A DNA stretch of 64,000 bases, taken from positions 137,147,990-137,211,989 of the forward strand of contig CP136067.1 in assembly GCA_032622095.1 (NCBI GenBank), read 5' to 3'. The DNA is from Siphonodentalium dalli. Taxonomy: Eukaryota > Mollusca > Scaphopoda > Gadilida > Siphonodentaliidae. The notes under the pieces were generated by a model that was not told the DNA's origin, ran no database searches, and was given only the letters and a program-made list of their open reading frames with translations. Positions 1-28,145 of this stretch are shown piece by piece. Position 1 is the stretch's first letter, and each line of letters starts with the position of its first letter. The translations under genes were made by a program, and so were the position numbers.

Positions 1-700
1 ACCCCCATGCATATATATGTGCAGGAGATACTCGAGCTAGGATTCGTCTTAATATACCTGAGTTGAGGAATATTCACCCAAATCCAAGATGGCGGCCAAA
101 ATGGCCACCAGAAATAGAAAAATCGCCGAAAATCGCTGATTTTAACATCAGTGAACATTATTGTCATGACAACTCCACACCTGCTTACTATTGGCGACCG
201 AAATTTGAAAACAAGCGTAAATTCCTTTAATTTCTTACGATGGGCGTTATTGTTTCGCGATGTCTACCCACCATTACATGTTGATATGGAATAGTGATAT
301 GAAGTATTCATTAGGGTTTGGAAATTGATACTCACAGTCAAGATCGCGGCTAAATTGGCGGCCAGAAATTGAAAATAAATAGATATTTTCACATAATAAT
401 TTCAACTTTTTGTCATGATATCGGTATGTATGGACGAAACTGTACATAAACCATCTATTAGTGTTCAACTTAATCGCATCAAAATGCATAACATAGCTCG
501 TATCCTTCTGGAAAGACGAAAACCCACAATTAATATCGCGATGTGCGGCATTTCGAAATCCATTCTCCACTTAGCGCCGATAATGGTCCGTAACCGTAGG
601 TGCGCCGAATAGTCATATGACTCATATCAGTACAATTACCTGATAACAGATTCTGATTTGCCACGTCATATCCATAATTATCTGGACCAGCTTCAATTTC
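1..700 (+). repeat. F1-A left inverted arm (partial)
   Basis: The arm pairs with about 5,374-6,080 on the opposite strand. Shared landmarks are the ATGGCGGCC blocks, the TATGTATGGA(C/T)GAAAC segment and the GCGCCGAATAGTCATAT segment. It is built from diverged monomers of about 175 bp, most with a CAAGATGGCGGCC-like block. Confidence 0.75.
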
Positions 701-1898
701 TTTGTCTGATAAATATAGGTCGATCACATCGACAAAGTATTCACCACTTCCTGGGAGAAGGTCCCTCTAATCATAACTTTTCAAACAATTCACTTTCCGG
801 TGTCTAGCTTACGATTTTAAATATTTGCTAAATATGGGATTTGTGCGTCATCTTGAACTAGGAAGGCATATGGTCGATGAGTATAAAGCTTACAGACTGT
901 TATCTATATGTATGTGTCTCATACCCCCATGGGGATAAAGACATGTACACCTGGCGAACCAGTTAGCTAGTCACGTCTCAATAGATGGTTCGTCAACAGT
1001 TACTCACAAACGCAGCGAACGCATTGGCATACGTGGACAACTTCGACAGTGTTTCGAAAGTTGCTAGCTGTCTCATTCCCTTGGACAAAATGTCTATCTG
1101 CTAAGGAGAAGACCATAATGTACCGACTACCCACACTTTTTGACCATGATCCGAAGCAAACTGTGTGACGTCCTGTAGTTGTCTCGTCGAATATCTCACA
1201 GCAGAGAAGAACAATACTCGCGGTGCTTATTTGTGGACTTGCGCCATGATAGTGGGAATGAAATGGGCCACGGTATACACCACCCCTACACCTGGTGCAT
1301 ATTTAAGATATAGAATGTCATGCGTGTCGGTTTTTTTTTGGTGTGGTAAGATTGTATTTCCACATCCGTTTCGAATCCGTTTTCATTCAACTTGACCAGA
1401 TGTACACTTTTGTCTGGATAATACTATTCTAGCCTCCCTCAAAACAGTCTGATGGACTAAAGGATAATGTCTTTATAGCATGAAGGTATGCGTTTTTGTT
1501 ATCCTCTCTCATGGTTAGTGTCAGTATGTGGGCGGTATTATTCAAGAAAATGTCAGGAACTCTGGTGCATTTATTTCACTATAGTCTCGATGGCAATGGC
1601 TTTGGAAGTTGGGAAAGCGACCTTTATGATCATATAGCTTTATATATATATATATATATAACTTTAGAATATAGTAGTTAATGTCTCATGCAGGAAAATG
1701 GTCGCAATGGTGATGTTACCAAGAAATCACTTGGTGTACCCAAAGTATGTTGAACTGAATGCAAGATCTCATCAACGTAACATTCCTCTGGATGTTCTTC
1801 GCGTTGAACATTTCACCATTGTGTTGATGGCATTTGTACTTTCTTGAACCATACCGACCACCACCCAGCGTGAGTATGACATATCAACCAACAATCAA
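700..1898. other. F1-A central unique segment, left of the LINE insertion
   Basis: This is collinear with 8,290-9,368 of copy B (shared CACAGCAGAGAAGAACAAT and TACACCACCCCTACACCTGG blocks). Reading frames are short, and frame is not conserved between the copies. A (TA)n run lies at about 1,639-1,660. I see no gene. Confidence 0.5.
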
Positions 1899-4497
1899 AT
1901 TGTTGTTGAGTTGTTTCCGGCCGAAGGCCGGGTAGGATGTTCGGACTGCAGTTTGCACGTCCCTTCACCCTTTCTTGGCTTTTCGATGGAAATCGATCTT
2001 GTGGCTATCGTAGTTACTGTGGTTGGAGGCAAGGCGGCGGAAGCGTGGTGGATGAGTCTGGTGCTGTCGAGGTTATGTTGGTCTGTCTGTTTCGTCTAGT
2101 TGGAGGATGGACTTCGTCTTTTTCGTGGTGAGTAGGTGGTTTCTAACTTGGAGTTCCAAGAGGAGTGGGCTGTTGTCTAGTCGGGCTAATGTCATGTTTC
2201 TGAGTTCCATCAGTCTTTGCTTGATTGTAGGTATATTCGCTGCGTCGTGGAGGCCGTTGATCGGTGTCCATGGTGGTTGACGGAGTGCGATGCGGAGAGC
2301 TTTATTCTGGACTTTCTGTAGTTTTTCGATGTAGGTCTTTGGAGCTGCTATGAGGATGGCGGCACCATACTACATGACTGGTCGGACGAAGATTTGGTAG
2401 AGGTCGATGAGTGTTTGGCTGTCGGTTCCCCAGTCTGTACCCAGGAGGCATCTTAGTAGGTTGGTTCTTTTTCGGGCTTTGTCGGCTATCTTATTGATGT
2501 GTGAGTTGAAGGTCATCTTTTGGTCTAAGGTTATTCCTAGTAGGATTGCTTGGTCGGATGGTTTGATTGTCTCGTTGTCGATCTTGATGTTGATGGACTG
2601 TGTTTTCCTTCGTCTGTGGAATAGGATGAGTTGGGTCTTCTTCGCGTTGAGTTTAATTCTCCATTTTGAGCACCATGTTGATAGGTCGTTGAGTGTCTTT
2701 TGCAGTCGTTTCTGTATGATTTGGGGGTTTGTGTGTGAAGTCCAGAGTCCTAGGTCGTCGGCAAACTGTGATATTTCAACGTTGTTGTGTCTGTCTATAG
2801 GTATGTCGTTGGCGTAGATTAGAAAGAGGAGCGGGCTTAGTACTGATCCTTGGGGTGTTCCGGCGCGTAGGTAGACTGGGTTTGATGTTTCGTTGTTAAT
2901 GCGGACGCTGAGTTGACGGTCTTGTAGAAATGAGGAGACAAGGCGTGTGTATTTTCTTGCGATGTTGAGATGGCTGATTTTGTATCGGAGGCCGTCGTGC
3001 CATACGGAGTCGAAGGCTTTTCTACGTCTAGGAATACTGCGGCTGTTGTCTAATTCTTGCCTAGGGATAGTCGTGCGTCTTCTGCTAGTCGGGTGATGTG
3101 TTCCATGCCTTCTTTCCCTTGTCGGTAACCGCGCTGCCATGGGTTGAAGAAGTTGGATGATTCTAGATGTTCACGTAGTCTGTTGCTGATGATTCTCTCG
3201 AAGAGTTTTCCGGTACACTGCAGGAGGCTGATGGGTCGGTAGTTGTTGGGGATCGAGCGGTCTTTGTCTGGCTTGGGTATCATTACTCCGACGGCCGTTT
3301 TCCATGCTGTTGGGAAGTAACCAATAGTTAGGCACGCGTTGAATAGGATGACCAGTCTAGCGAAGAGGGCGGGTGGTGCTTGTCGTAGGATCGAGTAGGT
3401 GATGTTGTCGTTGCCTGGTGCTGAGTTGTTTTTTCCTTTCTTTAGGTTTGATGCGATCTCGTCTTGTGTGATGGGCGCTGCTATGGGAAAGACTTCGTCT
3501 TCGTTGTTGATGTTGTCTAGTGGTTTGAAGAGGTCTGGGTTGTCTTTGATGTGGTTCTCAACGGTTATTTTGAAGTTGTCGTCGTATGATGGGCCTTGGT
3601 GGGTGTTGTGAATATTTTGTAGATTGTCTGCGAACGTTTCAGCTTTTTCGCGGTCTCCTGAAGTCATGATTCCGTCCGTATTATTGTTGGTTGTTCCGGT
3701 GCCTGTGAGAGTTTTGAAGGTCTTCCAGAAGTGTTTGGTCATTTTCTTGTCGCCGAGTTCTGTCGTTGCTCGCTGCCAGGATTCTTGCTTTTCTTTTTTC
3801 ACTGCTGCTTTTACCTGCTTGTTCATGTTGTTATATAGTTGTCTGTAGTGGGCGTCATTTGGGTTCTTCTGTTGTAGTCTTCGGAGCTTGCGTTTTAGAC
3901 GGATCATGTTGAGAGTTTCAGGAGAGACACGCCATGCTGTGATGTTGACTGGCTGTTTTGGGCATGCTATGTCTAGGGCTGGTCTGGTCTGCGAGAGATG
4001 CTGGCATGTAGTGTTGATGTCGGTTGTTGATGTGATGGATGTTTTGTCGATGTTGTCTGTGATGTGTTGACGAAATATATCTCAGTTGGCTTTGTTGAAG
4101 TTGCGTCGAAGGGTTTTCTGGTGGCGATCAGCAGTGGCGTTGCTGATCTTGATGTGGACGGGTAGATGGTCGCTGGAGATGTCGTCACCTACCTGGCACA
4201 GGAATCCTTTCGTTGTGATGGATGGGGTGGCGATGGCTAAGTCGAGGATGTCCCATTCGTTGGTTGCAGCATGGTAGTGTGTAGGTTCGTCTTTGTTGTT
4301 GAGTATGAGTAGATCTTGGTCTTCGATGATGTCGAACATTCGGTCGCCGTTGCTGTTGGTCCGTTTGCATCCGTAGAAGGTGTGTTTCGCGTTGTAGTCT
4401 CCGATGAGTATGCATTGTCGATGTGTAGATGTGAAGTGGTGGAAGGAGGCGTTGCTGAGTTCTGTGAGTGGTGGGTTGTAGGTAGCGACAATGGCAG
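1899..4497 (-). mobile_element. Jockey/CR1-group non-LTR retrotransposon, 5'-truncated
   Basis: The boundaries come from comparison with the uninterrupted copy B site at about 9,365-9,378, where ...ATCAACCAATTATCAAAGG runs straight into CGCCTTTAAGAC. Here 2.6 kb intervene. The element begins inside the endonuclease domain, so ORF1 and the N-terminal endonuclease are missing, the usual 5' truncation of target-primed retrotransposition. The 3' end on the minus strand terminates in CAACAACAA, a short simple-repeat tail in place of poly(A). No clear target-site duplication is visible. Confidence 0.85.
2073..4497 (-). pseudogene. LINE ORF2 pseudogene: partial endonuclease plus reverse transcriptase
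   Basis: In order the frame carries the C-terminal half of an APE-type endonuclease (GDYNAKHT, then SSDHLPVHI), a linker, and the reverse transcriptase with AFDSVWHDGL, AGTPQGSVLSPLLF and the catalytic FADD block near 2,770-2,790. A C-terminal tail follows (YIEKLQKVQNKALRIA), ending at a TAA at 2,073-2,075. It is dead. An in-frame TGA lies at about 4,082, a TAG at about 3,050, a one-base frameshift just before the AFDSVWHDG motif (about 3,017), and a TAG at 2,370 right after the 'FVRPVM' segment. Residues upstream of 'TAIVATYNPP' are F1 flank and not element. Jockey-like membership rests on motif wording and was not tested by phylogeny. Confidence 0.85.
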
Positions 4498-5373
4498 TCG
4501 CCTTTAAGACTACACCCCAGTATGGGTGGGTCTTATATAGTAGTAGCCAATGATACACACATTAACCAGTTGATTAAGAACGGCTTCCAAACGGATGGGA
4601 ACATACAATCTTAGTATACAAGGAAAGCAAAGCCACGCATGAGATCCTGTCTGAATCTAAAACATACCAAAAGAAGGGGATGTGCAGTCATGGTCCAATT
4701 TCATTTCCACTATCATGACACATTCCCACAAACTAACACCGTGTGTATTGTTATCATTTTATCGTGTATTGTTGGATCTTTTCGGTGAGATGATTGCTGG
4801 ACGCCAACAAGATTGTTCTTAGGATCATGTTCAAGAAGTGTGGGTATATTATGCATTATGGTCTTCTACGCCTTAACAGAGAGGCATCCGTCAAATGTCA
4901 GGCTTTCAACATTCGAAGCCATACAGAAGTTGTCCGGGTACGTCGACATCAGTGCATTAGATGAGTATGTGAATTGATGAACCATATATTGAGAAGTGGC
5001 TGTTTGGGAAGATCACCAGGTGTACATGTTGTTATCCCAATTAGGTCACCAAAGCTGAAAATACGCAGATAGATAGGTCCCTCTGAAAGCTAGTATACGC
5101 ATCGACCGAATACCTTTCTATTTTATCGCACAAGATGACGCCCATACCCCATATGTAGCATCTGAATTATACCATAAGCTATACCACGATGAAGCTCGCC
5201 AAGAATAAGGATAAGAATTCCATGCTTTCGAAACAATCACGTGAGCTGGACACCGGCATATGTATTGTTTGAAACATTCCAATTAGTGGGACCCTTCTAC
5301 AAAGAAGTGTAAAAAACTGTTTTTGTGAGCGAGATAGATTAATCTAACGAAGAGACGGAAACTGGTCCAGATA
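4498..5373. other. F1-A central unique segment, right of the LINE insertion
   Basis: This is collinear with 9,375-10,235 of copy B (for example CGCCTTTAAGACTACACCCC and GCTTCCAAACGGATGGGAAC). Short frames only; no gene recognised. Confidence 0.5.
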
Positions 5374-6568
5374 ATGCTGAATGTGGCAAATCAGAATAAG
5401 CTCAGGTATACTGTTGTTTTGATTCTTGGAAGTCATAATATGACTATTCGGCGCACGGTTACGGCCAGTATGGCCCTTAGTGGAGAATGGATTTTTAAAT
5501 GTCACATCTACAACTTATGTTGGAACTATTATATGGCTTATATTATGTACCGTTTCGTCCATACATATCGATATTATGACAAAAAGTTGAAATTAGTATG
5601 TGATACTATAGACATCTTTTCAATTTCTGGCCGCCAGTTTGGCCGCCATCTTGACTGTGAGAGTTTGCCAAACTCAAATGAATACTTCATATCAATGTTT
5701 CATATGAACATGTAATTGTGGGCAACTCAACTGTCAGCATTTGTGCAGTTGTCTCGAAAATAATGCCCAATGATGTGAAAATGAGGGAATTTCAGTGATT
5801 TTTCAAAATCTGTCCGCCATTGTGGGCGCCATTTTAGATTTGGGGGACTTTTATTTGGATTTGGTACAAGGAAATTTCTTCGCCTAAGTGTTCCCAACTC
5901 ACAATAGTAAGCAGGTGTGGAGTTACCGTGACAATAACGCTCATTGATGTTAAAATCAGCGATTTTCGGAAATTTTTCTATTTCTGGTGGCCATTTTGGC
6001 CGCCATCTTGGATTTTGGTGAATATTCCTCAACTCAGGTATAAGAGGAATCCTAGCTCGAGTATCTCCTGCACATATGTATGCATGGGTGTTGTTATGAT
6101 ATGAATGTATATTATGGTTCCCATGTGTTAACCAATGACTCTTCTATACGATAGATGTATAACATCACGCCAAGAAGCCCAAGATGCCAATATTTTTCCA
6201 ACAGAGACAAACGAAAGGTGGTGAAATGTCAGGAAAATAGCATATTTTCACATTTCGGCGGCCATCCGACATATTGGATTATTATTTTTTGCTAATTTGT
6301 AAGGGTTGTATATTAGCATAACGAATCGAGCGGAAAAAAAGACCGCGTGTGATATCATCTTTACTATAACGGCGATCGAAGAGACCTGGTGCATATATAA
6401 AAAATGGCCGCCACGATGACGCCATCTTGTCTGGAGTCTCTGCGGCCACTTTTTTTTCTTGTTAACAACTGAAAAATATTAGAGGAGACATTAAGAAAGA
6501 AAATTAGTGGGGTGAAGTTGAGTCCTGGGGGGTGGGGGTGCAGAAGTCGACTAATATCTCCTGGACTA
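5374..6568 (-). repeat. F1-A right inverted arm
   Basis: Reverse complement of the left-arm sequence, homologous to 19,787-21,074. It contains at least six (A/T)ATGGCGGC-type blocks and ends at the element terminus 6,568. Copy A shows the uninterrupted form of the F2 insertion site at about 5,513-5,530 (CTTATGTTGGAAC). Confidence 0.8.
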
Positions 6569-6641
6569 GTTGGTGAATGATGAATCTGGTTGAAGAGAGA
6601 TAATCCAATCCAACAAACAACCATTCAAATATTCAAGAACT

Positions 6642-6670
6642 TGATTTGAATATACTCTTAGTAAATAATG
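6642..6670 (+). repeat. 29-bp direct repeat, left member
   Basis: TGATTTGAATATACTCTTAG and onward is repeated at 22,705-22,733 with two mismatches. The pair flanks the whole R2/F1-B/F2/F3 stack (about 16 kb). Confidence 0.7.
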
Positions 6671-6758
6671 TGACCCGCCATATCAAATCCAGTCGCAAGT
6701 CGGGATTTTTTTTACCCTGTGCCAATGCTTTCTCTTATATAATGCGAGTCGACCGTAG

Positions 6759-8220
6759 TAGTCCAGGAGATATTGGTCGACCTCTGCACCCCCCCCCCCC
6801 AGGACTTAACTTCACCCCACTAATTTTCTTCCTTAAGGTCTCTTCTAATTTTTTTCACTTGTTAACAAGAAAAAAAAGTGGCCGCAAAGACTCCAGACAA
6901 GATGGCGTCCATCATGGCGGCCATTTTTTTAAAATGCACCAGGTCTCTTTAATCGCCATTATAGTAAAGGTGATAGCACATGAGGTCTTGTTTTCCGCTC
7001 GATTCGTTATGCTAATATACAACCCTTACAAATTAGCCAAAAATCCGACACCAGAATCCAATATGGCGGCCAAGATGGCCGCCGAAATGTGAAAATATGC
7101 TATTTTTCTGACATGTTACCACCTTTCGGTTGTCTCTGTGTGAAAATGTTAGAATTTTTGCGTCATGTTATGCATTTATCATATAGAGGAGTCATTGGCG
7201 AACACATGGGGACCATAACATGCATTCACTGCGGAATATTTTTGTCCGATATCACGTTTTCCCAAATGCCGGTATCATAGGTCAAAGCTTAAACTCCGTT
7301 AATAACGCGATGTTATGTTTCGAATCAATGCATGTTATGGCTATTATAACAACACCCATGCATATATATTTGCAGGAGATACTCGAGCTAGGATTCCTCT
7401 TATACCCGAGTTGAGGAATATTTACCCAAATCCAAGATGGCGGCCACGGCCAAAATGGCCACCAGAAATAAAAAATCGCCGAAAATCGCTGATTTTAACA
7501 TCAGTGAGCATTATCGTCATGACAACTCCACACTTGCTTACTATTGTAAATTGGGAACACTTAGGCGAAGAACTTTCCTTGTACCATATCCAAATAAAAG
7601 TCCCCCAAATCCAAAATGGCGCCCACAATGGCGGACAGATTTTGAATAATCACCGAAATTCCCTCATATTCACATCATTGGGCATTATTGTCGAGACAAC
7701 TCCACCCATGCTTACAATTGAGTTGGAAATACTGAGGTGAAGTAATTACATTGCATCTCATGCAAGAAATTGTTTTCCAAATCGAAGATGGCGGCCAAAA
7801 TGGCGACCGAAATTTGAAAACAAGTCTACATTCCTTTGCTTTCTTACGATGGGCGTTATTGATTCGCGATTTCTATCCACCATTACATGTTGATATGGAA
7901 TAGTGACATGAAGTATTCATTGGGGTTTGGCAATTGATACTCACAGCCAAGATCGCTGCTAAATTGGCGGCTAGAAATTGAAAAGAAATCGATATTTTCA
8001 CATATTAATTTCAACTTTTTGTCATAATATCGGTATGTATGGATGAAACTGTACATAACCCATCTACTAGTTCAACATAAAGGTATCAAAACGCATAACA
8101 TAGCTCGTATCCTTCTGGAAAGATGAAACACCACAATTAATATCGCGATGTGGTATTTCGAAATCCAGTCTCCACTTAGCGCCGATAATGGCCGTAAGCG
8201 TAGGTGCGCCGAATAGTTAT
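6759..8220 (+). repeat. F1-B left arm with ATGGCGGC monomer array
   Basis: This pairs with 19,787-21,074. Blocks related to CCAAGATGGCGGCC occur at about 6,897, 6,910, 7,060, 7,434, 7,612, 7,785 and 7,948. The last four are spaced about 178, 173 and 163 bp apart, which shows an underlying tandem monomer of about 175 bp that has diverged. A run of about 12 C lies near 6,788. Confidence 0.75.
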
Positions 8221-10230
8221 ATCAGAACAATTACCTGATAACAGATTCTGATTTGCCACGTCACGTCCATAATTATCTGGACCAGCTTCCATTTCTTTGT
8301 GTGATAAATCTAGGTCGCTCACACCGAAAAAGTATTCACCACTTCCTGGGAGTAGAGTCCCTCTAATCATAACGTTTCAAACAATTCATTTTCCGGTGTC
8401 TAGCTTACAGAAGGTCATCTCTATGTATGTGTCTCATACCCCATGGGATAACGAAATGTACACCTGGAGAACCAGTTAGCTAGTCACTTCTCAATAGATG
8501 GTTCGTCAACTCAAAAACTCAGCGAACGCATTGGCATATGTGGACAATTTCGACAGTGTTTCGAAGGTTGCTAGCTGTCTCATTCCCTTGGACAGATGTC
8601 TATCTGCTAAGGAGAAGACCCTAGTGTACAGACTACCCACACTTCTTGACCATTATCCGAAGCAAACTGTGTGACGCCCCGCAGTGTCTCGTCGAATATC
8701 TCACAGCAGAGAAGAACAATGCTCGCGGTGCTAGTTTGTGGACATGTGCCATGATAGTGGGAATGAAATGGGCCACTGTATACACCACCCCTACACCTGG
8801 TGCATGTTTACGATATCGAATGTCATGCGTGTCGGTTTTATTTGGTGTGGTAAGATTGTATTTCCACATCCGTTTCGAAGCCTTTCTGACTCAACTACGT
8901 ACACTTTTGTCTGGATAATAATATGCTAACCTCCCTCAAAACAGTCGGATGGACTAAAGGATAATGTATGTATAGCATGAATGTATGCGTGTTTTGTTAT
9001 CCTCTCTCGGGGTTAGTGTCAGTATGTGGGCGGTATTATTCAAGAAAATGTCAGGAACTGTGGTGCATTTATTTCACTATGTCTTTAAAGAACAATTTAC
9101 AGTCTCGATGGCATATGATCATATAGCTTTATATATATAACTTTAGAATATAGTAGTTAATGTCTCATGCAGGAAAATGGTCGCATTGGTGATGTTACCA
9201 ATAAATCACTTGGTGTACCAACGTTTGTTGAACTGAATGCAAGAGCTCATCAACGTAACATTCCTCTGGATGTTCTTCGCGTTGAACATTTCACCCTTTT
9301 GTTGATGGCATTTGTACTTTCTTGAACCATACCACCCAGCGTGAGTATGACATATCAACCAATTATCAAAGGTATCGCCTTTAAGACTACACCCCAATCT
9401 TGGTGGGGCTTATACAGCAGTAGCCAATGGCATACTCCTGGTCCAGTTGTTTAAGAAGGGCTTCCAAACGGATGGGAACATACAATCTTAGCATACAAGG
9501 AAAGCAAAGCCACACATGAGATCCTGTCTGAATCTAAAACATAACAAAATAAGGGGCGGTGCAGTCATGGTCCAATTTCATTTCCACTATCATGACACAT
9601 ACCCACAAACTAGCACCGTGTGTATTGTTATAATCTGCTTGGATCTGTTCGGTGAAACGATTGCTGGACGCCAACAAGCTTGTTCTTATGATCATGTTCA
9701 AGGAGTTTGGGTATATTATGCATTATGGTCTTCTACGCCTTGGCATAAATGCACCCGTCAAATGTCGGGCTTTCAACATTCGAAGCCAAATACAGAAGTT
9801 GTCCGGGTACACCCCGCAATAGATGAGTATGTGAATTGATGAACCATATATTGCGAAGTGGCTGTTTGGGAAGATCACCAGGTGTACACGTTGTTATCCC
9901 CATTAGGTCACCAAAGCTGACAATACGCAGATAGATAGGTCCCTCTGAAAGCTAGCATATGCATCGACCGAATACCTTTGTAGTGTATCGCACAAGATGA
10001 GGCATATACCCCATATGTAGCATCTGAATTATACCATAAGCTATACCACGAATGAAGCTCGTTAAGAATTCCAAGCTTTCGAAACCAACACGCGAGCTGA
10101 ACACCGGCATATGTATTGTTTGAAATATTCCGATTAGTGGCACACTCCTACAAAGAAGAGTACTGAACTGTTGTTGTGAGTGAGATAGATTAATCTGACG
10201 AAGAGACGGAAACGAGTCTAGATAATGCTG
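8220..10230. other. F1-B central unique segment
   Basis: Collinear with F1-A's centre but without the LINE. The uninterrupted LINE target is at about 9,365-9,378. Reading frames are short and not shared in frame with copy A. I recognise no gene. Confidence 0.5.
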
Positions 10231-10410
10231 AATGTGGCAATTCAGAATAAGCTCAGGTACTGTTGTTTTGATTCTTGGAAGTCATAATATGACTATTCGG
10301 AGCACCTATATATGGTTACGGCCTGTATGAGCCCTTAGTGGAGAATGGATTTTGAAATACCACATTGCGATTGTGGGTTTTCATCCTTCCAAAAGGCTAC
10401 GACTTACATT
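10230..10410 (-). repeat. F1-B right arm, inner piece, interrupted by F2
   Basis: GTGGAGAATGGATTTTGAAA continues as reverse-complement arm sequence up to CGACTTACATT. After F2 the arm resumes at 19,782 with ACATTGGAACTAATATATGG. Confidence 0.65.
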
Positions 10411-10495: not shown

Positions 10496-10831
10496 GTCAG
10501 AAGAAGTTATTTTATTTACAACATTCAAAGAACACAGATTGAAGGTAAGGAATAGAAAAGAATTTCCACTGCTGCTCCCTTCTGCGATAACATCTATAAC
10601 AAAACCAGGTACGTTTTGTCACATATTTTCTCACAATACCCGTTTAACATTGCTGAAAAAACATTCCCTATGCATTTACTATGGGAAAATAGCGAAAGTA
10701 ACCGGGTGAATAGAGCGTATTTAAAAGCTTATTTGAGCGTGAACAATATTTAACAATAAAGCTAATACGTCATCTAGTAATCCCCAATCAGTGTCGATGT
10801 ATTCTGGGGACATGACAATCTGCGGAATGGG

Positions 10832-11233
10832 ATGGAATATGGAATAGAACGACAATCTGCGGAACAGAATTTCAAATTGCGTGGAACGGCCGATATCTCG
10901 AGGAATACAGGGCGTAGGGCGCTCATGTTGGTGTCTAACGAAAGGCCCACATTCGCCCTATCCACACATATTAACCCCGCCACTGACCGGACACCAGACG
11001 TTGCATTATTTGATCGAAAACTGACCTAACATGGGGTGAAATTTGGGATAGCATGGCAATCTGCGGAACAGAATTTCAAATTGCGTGGAACGGCCGATAT
11101 CTCGAGGAATACAGGGCGTAGGGCGCTCATTTTTGTGTCTAACGAAAGGCCGATATTCGCCCTATCCACACATATTAACCCCGCCACTGAACGGACACCG
11201 GAAGTTGCATTATTCGGTCGAAAACTGACCTAA
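10832..11233 (+). repeat. 204-bp direct duplication carrying two 65-codon frames (left arm)
   Basis: Two tandem copies (10,832-11,029 and 11,036-11,233 as frames) each hold an ATG-to-stop frame of 65 codons with the core QSAEQNFKLRGTADISRN and ending GRKLT or DRKLT. The inverted arm holds two more. I do not recognise the peptide. The frames may be kept open only because the copies are young, so coding is possible but unproven. Confidence 0.5.
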
Positions 11234-12217
11234 CATAAAATGCCACAAACACGAAAAACTGCGTTCGACATTAATGTTTAGAATTTAGATTTCTCGACGA
11301 ATACGCTAGCAAACACCAAGTTTTAGGTATCAAATAACGCAGTGGAATACTGTGCACTCGTTTTTATCTACAATATGGCTGTTTTAGTGCGAAAACTGTA
11401 ATAGCGAAACGCAAACAAGCGCCGATAAAACAGCTAAAAATAGACTCGATATTTACATTTACACGATCGATTTCAGCTGGTATATTCAATATAATGGGGC
11501 GTATAGTATATCAAAATGTAGGATTAGACACAGGGAATGTATTTTTTTCCAAATGGGTCCACCACGCGGTGAAATTGTTGCAGAAATTCGCTCCAAAATA
11601 TTCGCTGTTGTGACTAAAAGCCCAGATGCCGGAGCCCGGCGACTAAAAGCCAAGTTACAAAATAGATTAACTGGTTTGAACGCATGAATATGTCAATGGT
11701 CAGACTGTTGGAAATAATACCCAATTTTTTTTATAGACTTATATAAACACTTACGTGTGAAACTCGAATTTTAATTAAATCCATGATTGTGTAGTCTCTC
11801 GTATATCACGAACACTGCGCGCACACATTTTATTGGAATACATGCCATCTTTGCCTTGTGTTTTGTTTAGTTTAGTTTTTTTGGCGACCAAAGATGAGAT
11901 GTGTTCGCACCACACTGTGCTAAGGCCAATGAAATCACTGAATTTCAGATTATCAGCTTAACCGCATTATTTCATTAGTATCTGAAGCAAATTAATGAAC
12001 ACCATAAACAATAGAAAATTAACACAGCTCTTCGTGCGGGATAATCTTTAAAGCCAGTGACACCTCAGTCATCCTGACAGACTGTACAAACATAATGATA
12101 ATGGGGCATTATGCATCATGAATATTTTTGTTAATTGGAATTGTCAAATCTAACATGCATGTTGTGGCTTCTAAGTAAACAAATTACCAGTTTTTTTAAA
12201 TGGAGGCATGATGTTAA

Positions 12218-12697
12218 AGGTACTCAACCCGTAAAGAGGGTCCCCATCTCAACAGATTCCAACAACAACAATCCGATCAGAGGGTCCTATATTACTATTT
12301 CTTTGGCTTTGGGGGTAAAAAATATTTGATTCGAGTCGAGGAACCCATCAAACAAAGCTCAGAGTTATTAGATATTGATTTTTGAAAATTCTTATGTTCT
12401 CGAGATGAGTACCAATAACTGCCGTCAATTTGGTAACATGCTCGAGATTTTACGCCAAAATTATATTCAAACAGACAAGGATGGATAACTCTATGATCAA
12501 GTGGGTAATAACAACGAATTTTTTACTGTCTTCTGGGCCAGAAACAATTCCCGATAATGAAAAATAATAGATTTCTAAAATCGATATCTAACAAATCTGA
12601 GCTTTGATGGGTGACTTCGTCGACTCGAATCAAATATTTTTGACCCCCGAAGCCATTGAAATAGTAATTGAGAGGAGTTTTATCGGGTTGAGTACCT
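12218..12697. mobile_element. TTAA-flanked palindromic MITE (AGGTACTCAA ends)
   Basis: The ends are AGGTACTCAA and TTGAGTACCT, flanked by TTAA on both sides. The opposite F3 arm (about 16,066-16,076) carries a single TTAA, so the TSD is demonstrated. A second copy lies at 26,633-27,025. The TTAA target resembles piggyBac or Kolobok, but the tip does not have the piggyBac CCCT start. Confidence 0.85.
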
Positions 12698-12787
12698 TTA
12701 AAGGACTCTTAGTTGCAATTAAGACCCTCGCAATAAATGCTTCAAAAAACGCTCTTTATTGACTACCCTATACATGTTCTATGTATA

Positions 12788-13183
12788 CTATAGGGCGACT
12801 GTATATACACAGACGGTATAGATAACTTTTAAGAGTGTTAACAATAATTTATTAGAACGAAAAAACAGAACGTCACATTTACAATGTATACATAGAAAAA
12901 TAACAAATAGTTCAAATGGCGATATGATAACAAGCAATAAGCCTATGGCTTTTATAAAAATCCTTTCCTCTAGAAATGTTACCCCGAGTGTCAATAGAGA
13001 CAGCTGCATGGTAAAGAAAGCGGGGATTTGAATATAGTTATGTTTTCTCAGGTTTTTTGTGAAGTAGGTTAAGCGAGTGCGGGGTTGAGAAGGGTTGGGT
13101 GTGATTGAGAAGATAATGGAGTAGGTAGGAAAAACAATGAAACAGGAAGGAAAAAATGTGTGGTAAATGGTGCATACAAGCAT
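12788..13183 (-). CDS. Hypothetical 131-codon frame in F3 spacer
   Basis: An ATG-started frame of 131 codons, strongly hydrophobic with two or three stretches that could span a membrane (around residues 60-75 and 85-105). There is no recognised family, neighbouring exons or codon signal. It lies inside a transposon in AT-rich DNA, where such frames arise by chance, so I rate it as probably non-coding. Confidence 0.12.
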   Translation of the reverse strand: MLVCTIYHTFFPSCFIVFPTYSIIFSITPNPSQPRTRLTYFTKNLRKHNYIQIPAFFTMQLSLLTLGVTFLEERIFIKAIGLLLVIISPFELFVIFLCIHCKCDVLFFRSNKLLLTLLKVIYTVCVYTVAL

Positions 13184-13972
13184 ACATGTATATAGTCGAA
13201 ATTTTAAATTATGGTAGTGTCCAACATAGAAACGGAATTAGAAATCAAATATGTCTCAGCACTCAGAAGATGTGATATAATGAAACTAGATAATTGTTAT
13301 ATGCTGGTAGCGTGTATCAATAAAGTAAATAAAATTAGTAAATACAATCAGTTTTAAGTGCATCAATATGCCAAGGTCATCACTGATTTCATTTAATAAA
13401 ATTTAACAAAGCATATTTGGATTTTATGCCCAGTGTTGTCAATGCATGTCGCTCTACAAGAACGATGTCGTGTATTTGATTTAAATAAAGTTTTCATACT
13501 AGTATATGGTCATATATGTATGTTTATTTTAGTTGATGAGACGGTGCAAAGTGTACAATAGAAAGCGTTGCAGACATTACGATTGTTCTTTTCATGGACC
13601 AAGGATTTTATGGAGACAGCTTTTGTATTTGCTAGAAAGTGTTGTTACGCCCCCCCCCCCCCCATGCGTAATGGTATTTATATGGCCGGGCACAGTACTT
13701 GGTACACACGCATGAATACCAGCATCCCATCTGTGACTCAGCTATGGTATATATGACTACATCTACAACCCTTCCATTCTGACGATGAACTTGGATGGAA
13801 TGGCATGTTGACACAGGAGAGTGTTCCGTTGATTATTTCTGTAAAATATGAATCCGACTTCTAAGCACTTACGTGCACTGATCTGAACCATAGCAGAGTA
13901 TCTCCTGGCATTCATGTTTCTTTTGTTATTGGTAGAGTTTAATTTCCTAGTTCGTTGCTTGTATAGCTTGCC

Positions 13973-14033
13973 CTCTGCGTCTCCATTTTCCCCAATGCTT
14001 ATGGGGTCACCTCCATGGTGATGAGGCGGAGAG
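13973..14033 (+). ncRNA. Candidate structured module, variant A (three-way junction)
   Basis: An 11-bp outer stem (CTCTGCGTCTC with GAGGCGGAGAG, one G-G mismatch, one G-T pair) encloses two 5-bp hairpins. These are CCCCA/TGGGG with a 7-nt loop ATGCTTA, and TCACC/GGTGA with loop TCCAT. Compared with variant B it differs at six positions: two complete base-pair swaps and two loop changes. The strand is not determined. It could be RNA, cruciform DNA or chance; expression is unknown. Confidence 0.45.
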
Positions 14034-14106
14034 AGGTCAGCTCTCTGTGTCCATTTTGTTTGTTTGACATAGTTTATATTTCGAAAACAGTGCTTCTATA
14101 ACTTGC

Positions 14107-14167
14107 CCCTGCGTCTCCATTTTCCCCAATGATTATGGGGTCGCCTCTATGGCGATGAGGCGGAGGG
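14107..14167 (+). ncRNA. Candidate structured module, variant B
   Basis: The fold is the same as in variant A. The second outer pair is C-G instead of T-A. The third pair of the second hairpin is G-C instead of A-T (TCGCC/GGCGA). The loops read ATGATTA and TCTAT. Confidence 0.45.
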
Positions 14168-14243
14168 GGTCATTCTGAATATTCATGTTTCTTTTGTTAT
14201 TGGTAGAGTTTAATTTCCTAGTTCGTTGCTTGTATAGCTTGCC

Positions 14244-14304
14244 CTCTGCGTCTCCATTTTCCCCAATGCTTATGGGGTCACCTCCATGGTGATGAGGCGG
14301 AGAG
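14244..14304 (+). ncRNA. Candidate structured module, variant A, second copy
   Basis: Repeats the module at 13,973-14,033 exactly one 271-bp period later, with the same fold. Confidence 0.4.
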
Positions 14305-14377
14305 AGGTCAGCTCTCTGTGTCCATTTTGTTTGTTTGACATAGTTTATATTTCGATAACAGTGCTTCTATAACTTGC

Positions 14378-14417
14378 CCCTGCGTCTCCATTTTCCCCAA
14401 TGATTATGGAGTCGCAT
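14378..14417 (+). ncRNA. Truncated module, variant B, second copy
   Basis: Starts with the variant B 5' stem and first hairpin (one change, TGGAG for TGGGG) and then diverges, so the closing strand is missing. Confidence 0.35.
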
Positions 14418-14436
14418 CTATCTCATTGTTTCATAC

Positions 14437-15085
14437 CGTACTATGCTATCATGTGTGCTAATCATTTCTGCTTTATTTCAGCTGCGTTGTAATGACGATA
14501 TTGTACATAAGATACTTTTACTATGTGATAACATCTCGAAGCTTTTCTAAATTTCACCTGCCAATTTTGCGTTCGGTATCAATGCACAATAATTAGTCTT
14601 TTAAAATTAATGACTTTACTGGATTTTAAGTGATATTTTCATATAGAAGATCAGCTATTTTCTTTATTGAACGTAATTTTTTTTTACCGCCATCCATGTG
14701 AATTGAAAATGATGGGACGAGGGGTATAGCGATGAATCTCATCTGTTCATATCATATCCCTATCTTAGTGCTTATGTCAAATTCATTTTATATGTGATTC
14801 GGACTTGATAACAGGTATTCAGTTCATAATATGCTATCACATGTGCTAATCATGTCTGCTTTTTTCCAGCTGCGTTGTAAATAAACTATTGTACAAAAAC
14901 AAATTTTTACTATGAGATGACATCTCAAACATGCTAGATATGTAATTTTCTAAATTTGACCTGTTAATTTTCCGCACAATAATGGATACTATTTTTGAAA
15001 TGTATTATTTTAAGGATTACTCCATATGGAAGTTATCTGTTATTTTCCTTTATTAAATTTTTTTTTCCGTCAAAATTTGTAATTA
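14437..15085 (+). repeat. Diverged direct duplication in F3 spacer (period about 383 bp)
   Basis: TATGCTATCATGTGTGCTAA at 14,440 recurs as TATGCTATCACATGTGCTAA at about 14,829. Both are followed by CAGCTGCGTTGTAA and a TTTATTAAA/poly-T tract. AT-rich; no gene seen. Confidence 0.6.
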
Positions 15086-15995
15086 TGTGAGAATCGCACT
15101 CAAATCGGTCATCGTGAGTTAAATTTGGCTGCATCGCGTACTAGGTCTAGCAGTTGTAAATATATTGGATTATGAACTAATAAAGATGTTATGTAAATAC
15201 ATATAAATTATCCATTACGTTCCATATACGGATCAATGTTTACTCAGACGTTGTTCCTGCATTACTGCATCAAATTGCAGGCACCAGACATGGCAAACAA
15301 TGGCCATATTTGTTGCAAACCAGCCTTGTCGTAAGATGAGCCGGTCCCAAGCCCGGAAAATGGCGAGGGCAACACAATTCATAAATCGCCAAAACAAATG
15401 AAGGGTAACCTGAATAGGACCCATAAATAAAAAGTCCCAAAGGGCAGAGTCACACACTCCCCTTCAATGTGGGTAATTGTGCCGAGCCTCAACTGATCGA
15501 GCTCGAGTGCTAAAATAAGTGCAAAATAGCACAAGCACTTTAAAGTTTAAAACATTTTAGCACGTTGTGCTATAACCAAATATGTGTGCATGTGTGTACC
15601 ATGTGTGCACTAAGTGCAACGTCTAGGCACTAGACAAAAAACTTTAAAGCTGCCAGACCATGTCTGCCGGTCCAAAGCCCGGATAAAAGCTGATGGGAGT
15701 TTTTTTTCTATACGAAATCTGCTATAGCAAAAAAAGATATTTAATTTAATAAACGTGTTCACACGAAGAAGACATTCAACCCGAGAAATAACATATGTAT
15801 TTGTTCTTGCGATTAGTTAAGTATATTTCAATTAAAATATATCTATCGATGTCTATATACTATACTGTTTCAAGTATTATAACGCGTTATTTAATGCATA
15901 TATGGTAATTTATAAGCTTGTTCTCAGTTGCCCTCGGTAAAGACGCACACCCTTGAGATGGGTAAATGCGCGAAGTCTCACAACTCTCCTTTAAT
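15086..15995. other. Remainder of F3 spacer, no gene recognised
   Basis: A minus-strand frame of 74 codons at 15,233-15,457 is rich in W and F and matches nothing I know. The phrases CCGGTCC(A)AAGCCCGG at about 15,340 and 15,669 form a small repeat around it. Confidence 0.4.
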
Positions 15996-17486
15996 TATAG
16001 GGTAGTCAATAAAGAGCGTTTGTTGAAGCATTTATTGCGATGGTCTTAATTGCAACTAAGAGTCCTTTAACATCATGCCTCCATTTAAAAAAAAAATGGT
16101 AATTTGTTTACTTAGAAGCCACAACATGCATGTTAGATTTGACAATTCCAATTTACAAAAATATTCATGATGCATAATGCCCCATTATCATTATGTGTGT
16201 ACAGTCTGTCAGGATGACTGAGGTGTCACTGGCTTTAAAGATTATCCCGCACGAAGAGCTGTGTTAATTTTCTATTGTTTATGGTGTTCATTAATTTGCT
16301 TCAGATACTAATGAAATAATGCGGTTAAGCTGATAATCTGAAATTCAGTGATTTCATTGGCCTTAGCACAGTGTGGTGCGAACACATCTCATCTTTGGTC
16401 GCCAAAAAAACTAAACTAAACAAAACACAAGGCAAAGATGGCATGTATTCCAATAAAATGTGTGCGCGCAGTGTTCGTGATATACGAGAGACTACACAAT
16501 CATGGATTTAATTAAAATTCGAGTTTCACACGTAAGTGTTTATATAAGTCTATACAAAAAAAATTGGGTATTATTTCCAACAGTCTGACCATTGACATAT
16601 TCATGCGTTCAAACCAGTTAATCTATTTTGTAACTTGGCTTTTAGTCGCCGGGCTCCGGCATCTGGGCTTTTAGTCACAACTGAAGTGCGAATATTTTGG
16701 AGCGAATTTCTGCAACAATTTCACCGCGTGGTGGACCCATTTGGAAAAAAATACATTCCCTGTGTCTAATCCTACATTTTGATATACTATACGCCCCATT
16801 ATATTGAATATACCAGCTGAAATCGATCGTGTAAATGTAAACATCGAGTCTATTTTTAGCTGTTTTATCGGCGCTTGTTTGCGTTTCGCTATTACAGTTT
16901 TCGCACTAAAACAGCCATATTGTAGATAAAAACGAGTGCACAGTATTCCACTGCGTTATTTGATACCTAAAACTTGGTGTTTGCTAGCGTATTCGTCGAG
17001 AAATCTAAATTCTAAACATTAATGTCGAACGCAGTTTTTCGTGTTTGTGGCATTTTATGTTAGGTCAGTTTTCGACCGAATAATGCAACTTCCGGTGTCC
17101 GTTCAGTGGCGGGGTTAATATGTGTGGATAGGGCGAATATCGGCCTTTCGTTAGACACCAAAATGAGCGCCCTACGCCCTGTATTCCTCGAGATATCGGC
17201 CGTTCCACGCAATTTGAAATTCTGTTCCGCAGATTGCCATGCTATCCCAAATTTCACCCCATGTTAGGTCAGTTTTCGATCAAATAATGCAACTTCTGGT
17301 GTCCGGTCAGTGGCGGGGTTAAAATGTGTGGATAGAGCGAATGTGGGCCTTTCGTTAGACACCAACATGAGCGCCCTACGCCCTGTATTCCTCGAGATAT
17401 CGGCCGTTCCACGCAATTTGAAATTCTGTTCCGCAGATTGTCGTTCTATTCCATATTCCATCCCATTCCGCAGATTGTCATGTCCC
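15996..17486 (-). repeat. F3 right arm (intact, lacks the MITE)
   Basis: Reverse complement of 10,807-12,772 without the 480-bp MITE. It holds the other two 65-codon frames at 17,060-17,257 and 17,264-17,461. Confidence 0.85.
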
Positions 17487-17494
17487 GTATTCTG

Positions 17495-19781: not shown

Positions 19782-21074
19782 ACATTGGAACTAATATATG
19801 GCTTATATTATGTACCGTTTCGTTTAATAATAACTTTATACAAATCAATATTATGACATTAGTATGTGATAATATCGGCTTCTTTTCAATTTCTGCCCGC
19901 CAGTTTGGCCGCCATATTGACTGTGGGTATTACTTGCCAAACCCTAATGGATAATTCATACATATCAACATGTAATGGTGGGTAGAAATCGCGAAACAAT
20001 AACGCCCATCCTAAGAAAGTAAAGGAATGTAGGCATGTTTTCAAATTTCGGTCGCCATTTTGGCCGCCATCTTTGATTTGGAAAACCTTTTCTTGCATGA
20101 GATGTAAGGTAATTACTTCACCTCAGTATTTCCAACTCAACTGTACGCATGGATGGAGTTGTCTCGACAACAATGCCCAATGATGTGAATATGAGGGAAT
20201 TTCGATGATTTTTCAAAATATGTCCGCCATTTTGGATTTGGGGGACTTTTATTTGGATATGGTACAAGGAAAGTTCTTCGCCTAAGTGTTCCCAATTTAC
20301 AATAGTAAGCAAGTGTGGAGTTGTCATGACGATAATGCTCACTGATGTTAAAATCAGCGATTTTCGGCGATTTTTTATTTCTGGTGGCCATCTTGGATTT
20401 GGGTAATATTCCTCAACTTAGGTATCCTAAAGAGGAATCCTAGCTCGAGTATCTGCTGCAAATATATATGCATGGGTGTTGTTATAATAGCAATAACATT
20501 CATTGATTCAAAACATAACATCGCGTTATTAACGGAGATTCGGCTTTGACCTATGATACCGGCATTTGGGAAAACGTGATATCGGACAAAAATATTCCGC
20601 AATGAATGCATATTATGGTCCCCATGTGTTCGCCAATGACCCCTCTATATGATAAATGTATAACATGATGCAAAAAATCTAACATTTTCCCACAGAGACA
20701 ACCGAAAGGTGGTAACATGTCAGAAAAATAGCATATTTTCACATTTCGGCGGCCATGTTGGCCGCCATATTGGATTCTGGTGTCGGATTTTTGGCTAATT
20801 TGTAAGGGTTGTATATTAGCATAACGAATCGAGCGGAAAACAAGACCTCATGTGCTATCACCTTTACTATAATGGCGATCAAAGAGACCTGGTGCATTTT
20901 TTTTAAATGGCCGCCATGATGGACGCCATCTTGTCTGGAGTCTTTGCGGCCACTTTTTTTTCTTGTTAACAAGTGAACAAAATTAGAGGAGATCTTAAGG
21001 AAGAAAATTAGTGGGGTGAAGTTAAGTCCTGGAGGGGGGGGGGTGCAGAGGTCGACCAAATATCTCCTGGACTA
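19782..21074 (-). repeat. F1-B right arm, outer piece
   Basis: Reverse complement of about 6,759-8,100, with the ATGGCGGCC monomers, a G-run at 21,035-21,047, and the terminal AATATCTCCTGGACTA. Confidence 0.85.
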
Positions 21075-21296
21075 TAGGTCGCCTCGCATATATAAGAGAA
21101 TGCATTGGCCTAACAATTTTTTACAATTTTAATAATTTTTTCTTGTATTCTTTAACAATTTTATAATTTCACCCATACAGCGCCCCAGACAAACACGAGC
21201 AGACAACACTCTTCTATATGCTTCTATATATGTGGGGGGCTCCCTGCAGGGTAATGGATGTTTTTTATTTTATGTCCTAAAAATTGTAAGAAACAT

Positions 21297-22624
21297 TTAA
21301 AAACGAGAGGCCGATCACGATCGGCAGATGTTTAACCCATACCTTGGCGATAGTGATCAGCTATTTTCAGTTCTGACACGAAAATCCATAAGCCATAACT
21401 CTGTTTAAAATATAAAAAAATGGATCAAACCCAAATTCGAAACCTATCTGTATTTTGGGCTGAGAAATTCACATACAAAATTTACATACATCTCAATAAA
21501 ATGAGATATATCAGATGAAAGGTATTTCTGCTAAGTATAAGGAATGTTCATTTTAACCACAAAAATCCATACAAGTGAAAGGGATATAATAGGAGAATGA
21601 TTACATGAAAAATATACAAAAGCATAAAATTGATGACAAGGGTTAACAATTTTAACTCAATAAAATTAGGTACAGGTATGTCACTGGAACACTGCATTGA
21701 TATCCTAAACCAGAGAGCTGTATGGAAATACAATAAACAACAGATGGTTCTCTGTCCAATTACAGCTTCCACAGTGCCCTGACAATATGATGGCTAAAAA
21801 TAACTCTAATTTCCAATAATACAAGTTAATCTATTCTCTCTCTCTGTGCTAACTGATATCACAGGGGTTATATATCTGCTATGGTTCTACATGATAAGCA
21901 TAAAAATATCGAATCTGTTCAATCCTTAGTTAAAAAGGGCCATAACTCTGGTATAAAAAACAGGTTCTAACCCATATTCAAACTTGATCTGTATTTTGAG
22001 TTGAGAAACTCACATACCAAATTTGGTTCCTATCAGACGATAACTGGTTGAGCTATCGAAGCATGGATGAATTCTATATCAAAGGGCCATAACTCCATTA
22101 AAAATAATCTGATCAAACCCATATTCGAACTCGAATTGTATTTTAGATAGAGAAACTCACATACCAAATTTGGTTCTCATGAGATAATATTTTTTTTAGT
22201 TATCGTAGCATCCATGAATTCTAAGGCGAAAAAGGGCCATAACTCCGTAAAAAAAACTCTGATCAAACCCATATTCGAACTCGATCTGTATTTTGGGCTC
22301 TGAAACTCGCATACCAAATTTGGTTCCGATCAGATAAAAATTGTTTGAGTTATGACAGCATGCGTGAATTCGAAGTTGAAAAAGGGCCATAACTCCGTAA
22401 AAAAAACTCGGATCAAACCCATATTCGAACTCGATCTGTATTACGGTCTGAGAAACTCATATACAAAATTTAGTTCCGATCGGATAGAAAATATTTGAGT
22501 TATCGCACCATGCGTAAAGTGTCCACGGACAGACAGACAGACGGACGGACGGACGGACGGACGCACGACGAGTGGTCAATCCGGACGTCGACATTATGTT
22601 TACCATACTATGGTATGGGTAAAC
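21297..22624. mobile_element. R8: tandem-repeat element ending in GGAC microsatellite, inside R2
   Basis: Begins AACGAGAGGCCGATCACGAT with an inner hairpin (GCCGATCACGATCGGC). It contains about five monomers of about 148 bp headed by AAGGGCCATAACTC, then a (GGAC)n tract at 22,535-22,565 and the end GGTATGGGTAAACAT. That end is inverted relative to ATGTTTAACCCATACC near the start. The intact R2 copy at about 27,750-27,800 lacks it. A second copy lies at 50,275-51,500. Confidence 0.75.
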
Positions 22625-26004: not shown

Positions 26005-26251
26005 TCCTTTCATGATGGGAGCTGCGCTGGTGCAGCATTAAAGATTCTGTGTCAGTACATTCTCTTATATATGCGAGTCTCCCATAGGGAGCCTCGCATA
26101 TATATGAGAATACACTGGCTTACAAGGTCAAGATAAATATTGTTAGGCCAATGTATTCTCTTATATATACGAGGCTCCCTATGGGCAACGCGCATATATA
26201 AGAGAAGTATTGTCACAGGTAAAATTTTAGGAAGCTCCATTCATAGAAGGG
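26005..26251. mobile_element. piggyBac-like MITE, old copy
   Basis: Flanked by TTAA (26,001-26,004, 26,252-26,255). The ends are TCCTTTCATGATGGGAGCT and a decayed reverse complement. Inside are two copies of the R2-type palindromic core (CTCTTATATATGCGAG). Confidence 0.7.
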
Positions 26252-26415
26252 TTAATTTTCATTCTATATCTAGGCGACACCAATTTTATCAGTTAATTTA
26301 CGAACCAGCCGACAACTCTTTTTTTTTACCAGAAATACCAATTGCTTCCTTTTTGGCCTATGGTATTCAGTTTGTATAAGACTTCTGACCAAACCCTTCT
26401 ATCAGTCATAATAGC

Positions 26416-26574
26416 ATGGTCAAGCCTTGATATAGGGTGTCTGTCATTTGCAGAATGAGGTCCCCAGAGGGTGAATTTGGTGATGCTAGCCCACTATGCG
26501 GGGTAGCATCACTAAATTCACCCTCTGGGGACCTCATTCTGCAAATGACAGACACCCTATTTCAAGGCTTGAGC
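26416..26574. repeat. R3 foldback palindrome
   Basis: Starts CAAGCCTTGATATAGGGTGT, continues GCAGAATGAGGTCCCCAGAG, and returns as its reverse complement around a CCACTATGCGGGG centre. Confidence 0.8.
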
Positions 26575-26632
26575 ATGGTACCCCATCCCGAGCCCTCTAT
26601 CAGTCATACTAGCATGGGAAAATGAGAATTAA

Positions 26633-27025
26633 AGGTACTCAATCCGATTAAGCACCCCTATATTACTATTTATTTGGCTTCGGGGGTAAAAAATATTTGA
26701 TTGGAGTCGAGGAACACACCCAACCCCATCAAAGCTGAGAGTGATCAGATATCAATTTTTGTGGACCAGAACCAAGATGGATAACTCGAAAATCAAGTGG
26801 TTACTATTAACAATAATAATCACCTGATTTTAGAGTTATCCATCTTACACCCGCAATTTGTCTGTTTGAGCATGTGGTTCTGGTCCACATCTCGCAAAAA
26901 TTAACAAACTTCAAAAATCAATCTCTGAGCTTTGAAGTGTCGGTTCCTTGACTCCAATCAAATATTTTTTACCCCCGAAGCCAAAGAAATAGTAATTTAT
27001 GGGTGCTTAATCGGATTGAGTACCT
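26633..27025. mobile_element. TTAA-flanked MITE (AGGTACTCAA ends), second copy
   Basis: Ends AGGTACTCAA/TTGAGTACCT with TTAA at 26,629-26,632 and 27,026-27,029. Same family as 12,218-12,697. Confidence 0.85.
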
Positions 27026-27236
27026 TTAATGTATTGATGTGTTGGTTTTATTTATTATTATTTGCAATAAATGATTTAAAGTGAATATATGTGATTTTCA
27101 TTCACCACTGAAATCGCAATTGGTATGTCAACCCCTGTCTGAATTTTTCCCCTCCTCTACCAAGATATATTTCCCCCTAATATGCGTAAATCAACCAATA
27201 TAATTGCTGTGGCCTAACAGTGATTTTTTTTGTCTT

Positions 27237-27982
27237 GGTACTGTACACTAAATCCAGCCATTTATCGGACCATCTCCTTTTATAATCAACAGAATATATG
27301 CAACAAATGAATGAATTCGAACCATGGATTAGTGCAAAATACACTCATGTGCTCTATGAACGATGTAAACAACATGGTAATTATAATGAAAATGAATAAA
27401 TGGCTGGAGTCATAAATTCATTTTCATTATAATGACCAGATTGTTCATTCATTTGTTGCATATATGTGACCCGCCATTTCAAATCCAGTCGTAAGTGGGG
27501 ATTTTTTTACCCTGTGCCAATGCATTCTCTTATATATACGAGTCGACCATAGGTCGCCTCGCATATGTAAGAGAATGCATTGGCCTAACAATTTTTTACA
27601 ATTTTAATAATTTTTTCTTGTATTCTTTAACAATTTTATAATTTCACCCATACAGAGCCGCAGACAAACATGAGCAGACGACACTCTTCTATATGCTTCT
27701 ATATATGTGTGGGGCACCCTGCAGGGTAATGGATGTTTTTTATTTTATGTCCTAAAAATTTTAAGAAACATTTATTTAAAAAAAATTATAAAAAATTGTT
27801 AGGCCAATGCATTCTCTTATATATGCGAGGCGACCTATGGTCGACTCGCATATATAAGAGAATGCATTGGCACAGGGTAAAAATATCCCGACTTACGACT
27901 GGACTTGATATGGCGGGTCATATATTCTGTTGAGTATAAAAGGAGATGGTCCCATAAATGAGCAGATTTAGTGTACAGTACC
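27237..27982. mobile_element. R12 palindromic MITE hosting an R2 copy
   Basis: The termini are GGTACTGTACACTAAATC and its reverse complement. The interior is split at GCATATAT/TATATTCTG by the R2 copy. An uninterrupted right half is at about 44,350-44,540 (TTGCATATATTCTG). Confidence 0.7.
27466..27920. mobile_element. R2 intact copy (reference for the 6.7-22.7 kb stack)
   Basis: Ends TGACCCGCCAT and ATGGCGGGTCA, with two palindromic cores CTCTTATATAYGCGAG facing each other around an AT-rich middle. TATAT is present on both sides (27,461-27,465, 27,921-27,925). The core contains the uninterrupted F1 target ACCATAGGTC. Confidence 0.8.
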
Positions 27983-28145
27983 CCTTTAACATGTACTTGA
28001 AAATTTGTCGACAAGTCAAACATTGATCTTACTGAAAATAAAAAATGGCTCAAACAACTCCTGGTTGTCTTACTTCAAGCAGATCAGCTGTACATATAGA
28101 AAATAATAGGATGTGGATATCTTAAAAAGTTTCAGGGTAGATTTA

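Follow-up and report, generated by a model that had tools for sequence, protein, structure and literature searches.

At the centre of the locus lies a foldback (long terminal inverted repeat) DNA transposon that carries a short tandem array in the spacer between its arms (Table 1); by the window we mean throughout the whole 64-kb stretch of DNA that was analysed. The outer parts of the arms (10807-12225 against 17486-16060) are 98.7% identical over 1428 columns, each arm holds a doublet of 204-bp tandem repeats, and the 8-bp target-site duplication GTATTCTG borders the element on both sides without a mismatch (10799-10806 and 17487-17494). Long and near-identical terminal inverted repeats, a target-site duplication and tandem repeats in the arms identify it as a foldback DNA transposon, in whose spacer the first-pass annotation had rightly placed the array. 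Since 12698-12772, as the inner end of the left arm, can be paired with 15996-16070 (97%), this arm probably extends to 12772, interrupted by an insertion at about 12226-12697. This segment, present in the left arm and absent from the right, contains inverted repeats (12269-12398 and 12561-12690) related to 26629-27029 and is probably a MITE that was inserted once the arms had formed. Two open frames of the spacer were tested, both on the minus strand (12791-13237 and 13766-14095), and neither matched a Pfam family. Just past the array, the spacer also includes a degenerate direct repeat (14439-14571 and 14827-14974, 75% identical over 148 columns).

Table 1. Positions in the window of the foldback transposon, its tandem array and the predicted stems of module A.
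Feature	Position	Strand	Basis or remark
Foldback (long terminal inverted repeat) DNA transposon, "F3"	10807..17486	.	arms and target-site duplication
Left terminal inverted repeat of F3	10807..12772	+	10807-12225 pairs with 17486-16060; 204-bp doublet 10827-11234 inside
Spacer of F3	12773..15995	.	between the inverted repeats
Right terminal inverted repeat of F3	15996..17486	-	204-bp doublet 17057-17464 inside
First 271-bp dimer unit (monomers A and B)	13910..14180	+	direct repeat spacing 271; TRF periods
Second dimer unit, last 30 bp missing	14181..14421	+	241 of 271 bp present; 98.8% identical to 13910-14150
Module A	13973..14033	+	predicted fold, pair list
Module B	14107..14167	+	fold predicted as in A; six differences from A
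Module A2	14244..14304	+	identical to A
Module B2, truncated, 3' half missing	14378..14421	+	three-armed fold not predicted
Module A, stem P1	13973-13976 and 13978-13983 with 14030-14033 and 14023-14028	+	predicted fold
Module A, stem P2	13990-13994 with 14002-14006	+	predicted fold
Module A, stem P3	14007-14011 with 14017-14021	+	predicted fold

The array spans 13910-14421 and is thus larger than first noted. Its 61-nt modules follow one another at spacings of 134 and 137 bp, and the periods of 134 and 271 reported by TRF, together with a direct repeat at a spacing of 271, characterize it as a satellite-like tandem repeat of head-to-tail monomers. No base differs between the A units (135 of 135 identical). 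Between B and B2, 3 of 106 positions differ, and two of these belong to stems: in B2, G to A at 14410 breaks a pair of P2, and C to A at 14416 affects a base whose partner has been lost. As B2 cannot form the whole fold, it is no test of it. The four modules originally put forward as evidence therefore reduce, given that A2 duplicates A, that the 271-bp duplication is recent and that B2 is truncated, to a single independent comparison, A against B.

In its anatomy the element resembles two published systems. Tetris of Drosophila virilis is a foldback DNA transposon with internal tandem repeats (PMC4079207); it shares with our element the long inverted repeats with tandem repeats in them (about 220 bp in Tetris, doublets of 204 bp here) and the role of a satellite-like carrier, whereas the array described here sits in the spacer and not in the inverted repeats, and the likeness is one of anatomy. 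Helentrons of the Pacific oyster (HINE) carry tandem repeats as well (PMC7492417) and are similar in having a short satellite-like array as the central cargo of a mobile element, but they are characterized there by inverted repeats in subterminal position and a 3'-end palindrome, unlike the inverted repeats of about 1.4 kb and the 8-bp target-site duplication of our carrier.

Further mobile elements and repeats lie elsewhere in the window. Retrotransposon frames on the minus strand (2373-4081 and 4085-4561) encode a reverse transcriptase and an endonuclease (Pfam RVT_1 and Exo_endo_phos_2), and an open frame at 44890-45435, also on the minus strand, has one TNFR-like cysteine-rich match (E 4e-5, below Pfam's cut-off). 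Because of these reverse transcriptase/endonuclease frames and the TNF-receptor-like frame the window looks eukaryotic. Large direct and inverted duplicated segments, many of them 80-92% identical, occupy 1-10402 and 19785-21109 and may be further nested repeats. Related tandem arrays are found at 21932-22513 and 51093-51504; the unit of the former contains GGGCCATAACTCCG, a style of repeat known from bivalves, and the style of the window's repeats tentatively suggests a mollusc.

Predicted fold and divergence of the modules

On the plus strand, modules A and B are both predicted to fold as a three-way junction with a basal stem (P1) and two 5-bp hairpins (P2 and P3) that have loops of 7 and 5 nt. 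The basal stem consists of 10 pairs, one of them G-U, with a central G-G mismatch, so that of the "11-bp stem enclosing two 5-bp hairpins" of the first-pass annotation the hairpins hold and the stem needs correction. Minimum free energies (MFE) are -26.6 (A) and -30.2 kcal/mol (B). The shuffle z-scores are -3.15 and -3.42 with RNA parameters and -3.54 and -4.48 with DNA parameters, the latter giving a fold that is no less pronounced, and the minus strand folds less well (RNA z -2.15 and -3.24, DNA z -1.69 and -2.81 for A and B). A scan of the window on both strands (21314 segments of 61 nt, taken at a step of 6 that missed the exact beginning of module A; z scored for the 4487 segments with an MFE of -12 or lower) recovered 43 loci with an MFE no higher than -25 kcal/mol and 134 with a z no higher than -3.3, with two of the loci in the array in either case, and many of the stable loci are situated in repeat-rich stretches at 26-36 kb and 46 kb. 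Stability of this degree is ordinary for the window, and alone it therefore says little.

A and B differ at six of 61 positions (A/B: 13974 T/C, 13998 C/A, 14009 A/G, 14014 C/T, 14019 T/C and 14032 A/G). Four of these changes make up two compensatory pair swaps, one in the outer stem and one in P3, the other two are in loops and no pair is broken, all of which reproduces the earlier account. An alignment extended into the flanks adds two matching 1-nt indels, one to either side of the stem, and with these beside it the T-A to C-G swap of the outer stem depends on the alignment. The P3 swap reads CGC/GCG in B and CAC/GTG in A, that is, CpG versus CpA/TpG at two sites, which is why the weight given to CpG mutation matters: double CpG decay in P3 yields a complete swap in two of its four outcomes, and three of the four keep all pairs if G-U is counted. 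With six substitutions placed randomly on A or B (60000 trials each, the smallest values resting on few hits), the probability of two swaps without a broken pair was 0.0002 to 0.0004 if CpG sites were given no extra weight; it rose to 0.002-0.005 under a moderate CpG weight and to 0.011-0.016 under a strong one. The pattern had been called hard to get by chance, a judgement that is overstated for one comparison with a P of up to 0.016. The observed/expected ratio of CpG falls from 0.82 in the window (TpG 1.22, CpA 1.20) to 0.57 in the array; the complete foldback element, however, has a ratio of 0.98, which weakens the argument from CpG decay. In an alignment-shuffle control 129 of 500 shuffles reached the observed score, a test that discriminates little because the alignment has two distinct rows only.

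A different line of evidence comes from the flanks. In the alignment of A with B, the module with its extended stem is identical in 60 of 67 columns, as against 44 of 66 in the monomer's own 5' flank (Fisher p 0.0016), and the stretch of 12 nt directly upstream of the module is conserved as well (10/12). The 5' flanks of A and B are homologous (shuffle p about 0.001), the similarity of the immediate 3' flanks is not significant over 34 nt (p 0.25), and a longer 3' comparison that reaches into the 5' flank of the next monomer is significant (p 0.003). The module block is therefore either slower-evolving or homogenised. Of all the results, this excess of conservation over the 5' flank argues most strongly for a function of some sort.

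Compensated changes in other repeats of the window

Repeats elsewhere in the window served as controls. For gap-free 61-nt comparisons from repeat alignments (80-97% identity, four to eight differences, at least 18 pairs in both sequences), 330 of 918 break no pair, and 36 of those have at least two swaps, as A and B do; the comparisons overlap and are not independent, and the listed examples have eight differences where the module has six. Two sources account for these cases, a palindromic MITE family and a tandem array at about 43.7 kb. Divided by type of fold, at least two swaps without a break occur in 32 of 393 simple hairpins versus 4 of 525 branched folds, and a looser count restricted to other repeats gave 69 of 2450 comparisons, in 7 of 87 bins of 100 nt. 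Paired swaps thus arise here in palindromic repeats without known RNA function, though they are rare in branched folds. The opposite was seen in a 93-bp palindromic MITE, in which none of eight variable pairs is compensated (7 copies out of 11 matches, leaving out two with gaps, one extending only to position 86 and one covering 52-93). Arm-to-arm correction is therefore not universal in the window, a result that speaks for the first-pass annotation. Its conclusion that the substitutions point to selection on a fold is nonetheless overstated, considering that there is one independent comparison, that the inner swap amounts to two CpG-type transitions and that the same pattern is met in 36 of 918 comparisons elsewhere in the window.

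Two of the repeats deserve description in their own right. Between copies of a palindromic MITE-like family in 26047-36138 (near 26047, 27510, 27797, 29575, 30868 and 35966), complete swaps of two bases are seen close to the loop, TCTCCCATAGGGAG versus TCGACCATAGGTCG, and the family is a case of compensated change in a DNA palindrome. A 174-bp tandem array at 43576-44280 has, on the minus strand, two paired swaps and no broken pair between its monomers.

Searches for relatives and known RNA families

A covariance-model search of the window, taken to E 10, returned 16 matches; apart from the four copies in the array, none is better than E 1.2. Exact and partly degenerate patterns of the module had no match in viral contigs, the module was not matched in a phage collection, and a paper search with two 15-nt pieces of it gave no match. 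In a prokaryote collection the stricter module pattern had no match and the looser one a single partial match, in a Paenibacillaceae MAG (model positions 15-59, 20.1 bits), which has the P2 hairpin and part of P3 but not the outer stem; its E-value of 0.0011 within the 7848 bases of that sequence is biased, because the match was picked by a pattern cut from the module itself. About 0.5 such matches are expected, by our estimate, from the 20 fixed bases of the pattern, and we take the match to be a product of chance and not a homologue.

The Rfam search that the first-pass annotation had recommended was carried out, and Rfam 15 gave no match at the gathering score in the whole window; a stretch of 1101 bases stayed without a match even up to E 10. 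Searches with 111-base stretches gave five matches with E 1.1 to 10, all far below the gathering scores, among them sR35 (E 1.1 and 2.9; 10.9 and 9.4 bits, where the gathering score is 60). A C/D box snoRNA was considered and rejected: on the plus strand RTGATGA occurs twice (in A and A2) and CTGA only once, just after B, the boxes being taken from their consensus. Parts of module B may seem to resemble U1 snRNA, and no U1 match up to E 10 was obtained in Rfam.

The first hairpin had been likened to an anticodon arm. A tRNA that lacks the D arm has a 5-bp stem with a 7-nt loop beside a second 5-bp arm, and the module does share this arrangement; unlike such a tRNA, it has a basal stem of 10 pairs with a mismatch, and neither ARAGORN (bacterial code setting) nor Rfam found a tRNA. 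With A and B boxes of Pol III promoters (by their consensus) also missing from 13.6-14.8 kb, we rejected a tRNA or a tRNA-derived SINE. Each module further contains a TTTT run, which on the plus strand tends to end Pol III transcription and therefore argues against a Pol III small-RNA gene. Elements of the kind described as small-RNA-derived LTR elements (PMC10886601) do not fit, because the locus has no tRNA or 5S match.

The hammerhead ribozyme is itself a three-way junction, with the conserved core CUGANGA. Neither strand of 13900-14440 contains CTGANGA and Rfam gave no hammerhead match, and a hammerhead ribozyme or retrozyme was accordingly dismissed. Animal hammerhead retrozymes, in which short repeats of 150-450 bp follow one another in tandem and carry a folded RNA motif, and which are present in a mussel (PMC7229834), are nonetheless the nearest RNA analogue in anatomy, and differ from the array by the core that it lacks.

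Alternative readings of the paired module

We favour, at what we judge to be an even chance, the reading of the array as a palindrome-bearing, satellite-like repeat within a foldback transposon, which would be kept paired at the DNA level and for which an RNA product is not needed. The array is a dimer of roughly 134-bp, satellite-like monomers in the spacer of a foldback transposon with no coding match found, each complete monomer holding a GC-rich nested inverted repeat. It would have grown by tandem duplication, an old event giving rise to A and B and a recent one adding 271 bp, and it would travel as cargo of the transposon. The arms would stay complementary because CpG decay alters both of them in matching ways and because one arm is overwritten with the sequence of the other by short template switches or by conversion, and mild DNA-level constraint on the module may contribute. 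According to PMC8794818, template switching is a source of compensatory changes in hairpins, its role in maintaining short stems being less clear. Several of the results described above run counter to this favoured reading: CpG is not depleted over the whole foldback element (0.98), the 93-bp palindromic MITE is uncompensated at all of its variable pairs, only 4 of 525 branched folds elsewhere have the pattern, the plus strand folds better than the minus strand, as an RNA would, and the module is more conserved than its 5' flank. It is because of this last result that readings as a DNA site and as an RNA are both kept.

A palindrome recognised as DNA by a protein, whether as a cruciform or as paired sites, for instance by a transposase or a host chromatin protein, would explain the conservation above the 5' flank as well as the tandem placement inside a transposon, and would agree with the plus-strand z-scores under DNA parameters (-3.54 and -4.48). 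We consider it rather unlikely, since the module occupies the middle of the spacer and not the vicinity of the transposon ends, the covariance model finds nothing better than E 1.2 beyond the array, and a two-strand cruciform would have to tolerate the G-G mismatch, the G-T pair and the weak fold of the minus strand (-1.69 and -2.81). The conservation is also in line with a structured RNA of the transposon or of the host, a small, ribozyme-like or internal regulatory RNA that would form the three-way junction from the plus strand of the array; two complete swaps and two loop changes with no pair broken, z-scores of -3.15 and -3.42 on the better-folding strand and the rarity of the pattern in branched folds of other repeats (4/525) all argue for it. 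That these swaps come from a single independent comparison, with P from 0.0002 to 0.016 and 129 of 500 shuffles of a two-row alignment reaching the score, and that neither an Rfam match at the gathering score nor a Pol III box was found, makes such an RNA an unlikely explanation to us. Its more specific form, a candidate three-way-junction RNA of an undescribed kind, in tandem in a foldback transposon and with a fold under selection, e.g. for self-processing or protein binding, we regard as improbable; such an RNA would possibly be pseudoknotted, as a junction CAUU could pair with an AAUG around the first loop, judged by eye. An ordinary repeat that happens to fold, with neither pressure nor mechanism to keep its arms paired, is very improbable in our estimate. 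The strongly CpG-weighted null (up to 0.016), the choice of this spot from 64 kb and the many stable folds of the window are what such a coincidence has in its favour, against which stand the nulls without CpG weighting (0.0002 to 0.0004) and the fact that the conservation above the 5' flank would need luck as well.

What the locus means depends on whether the fold is selected. If it is, a structured RNA would be carried in tandem by a foldback DNA transposon, of which we know no example; its presence in tandem copies would facilitate a test. If it is not, the array would illustrate that CpG decay and palindromic repeats can mimic RNA covariation when two copies are compared.
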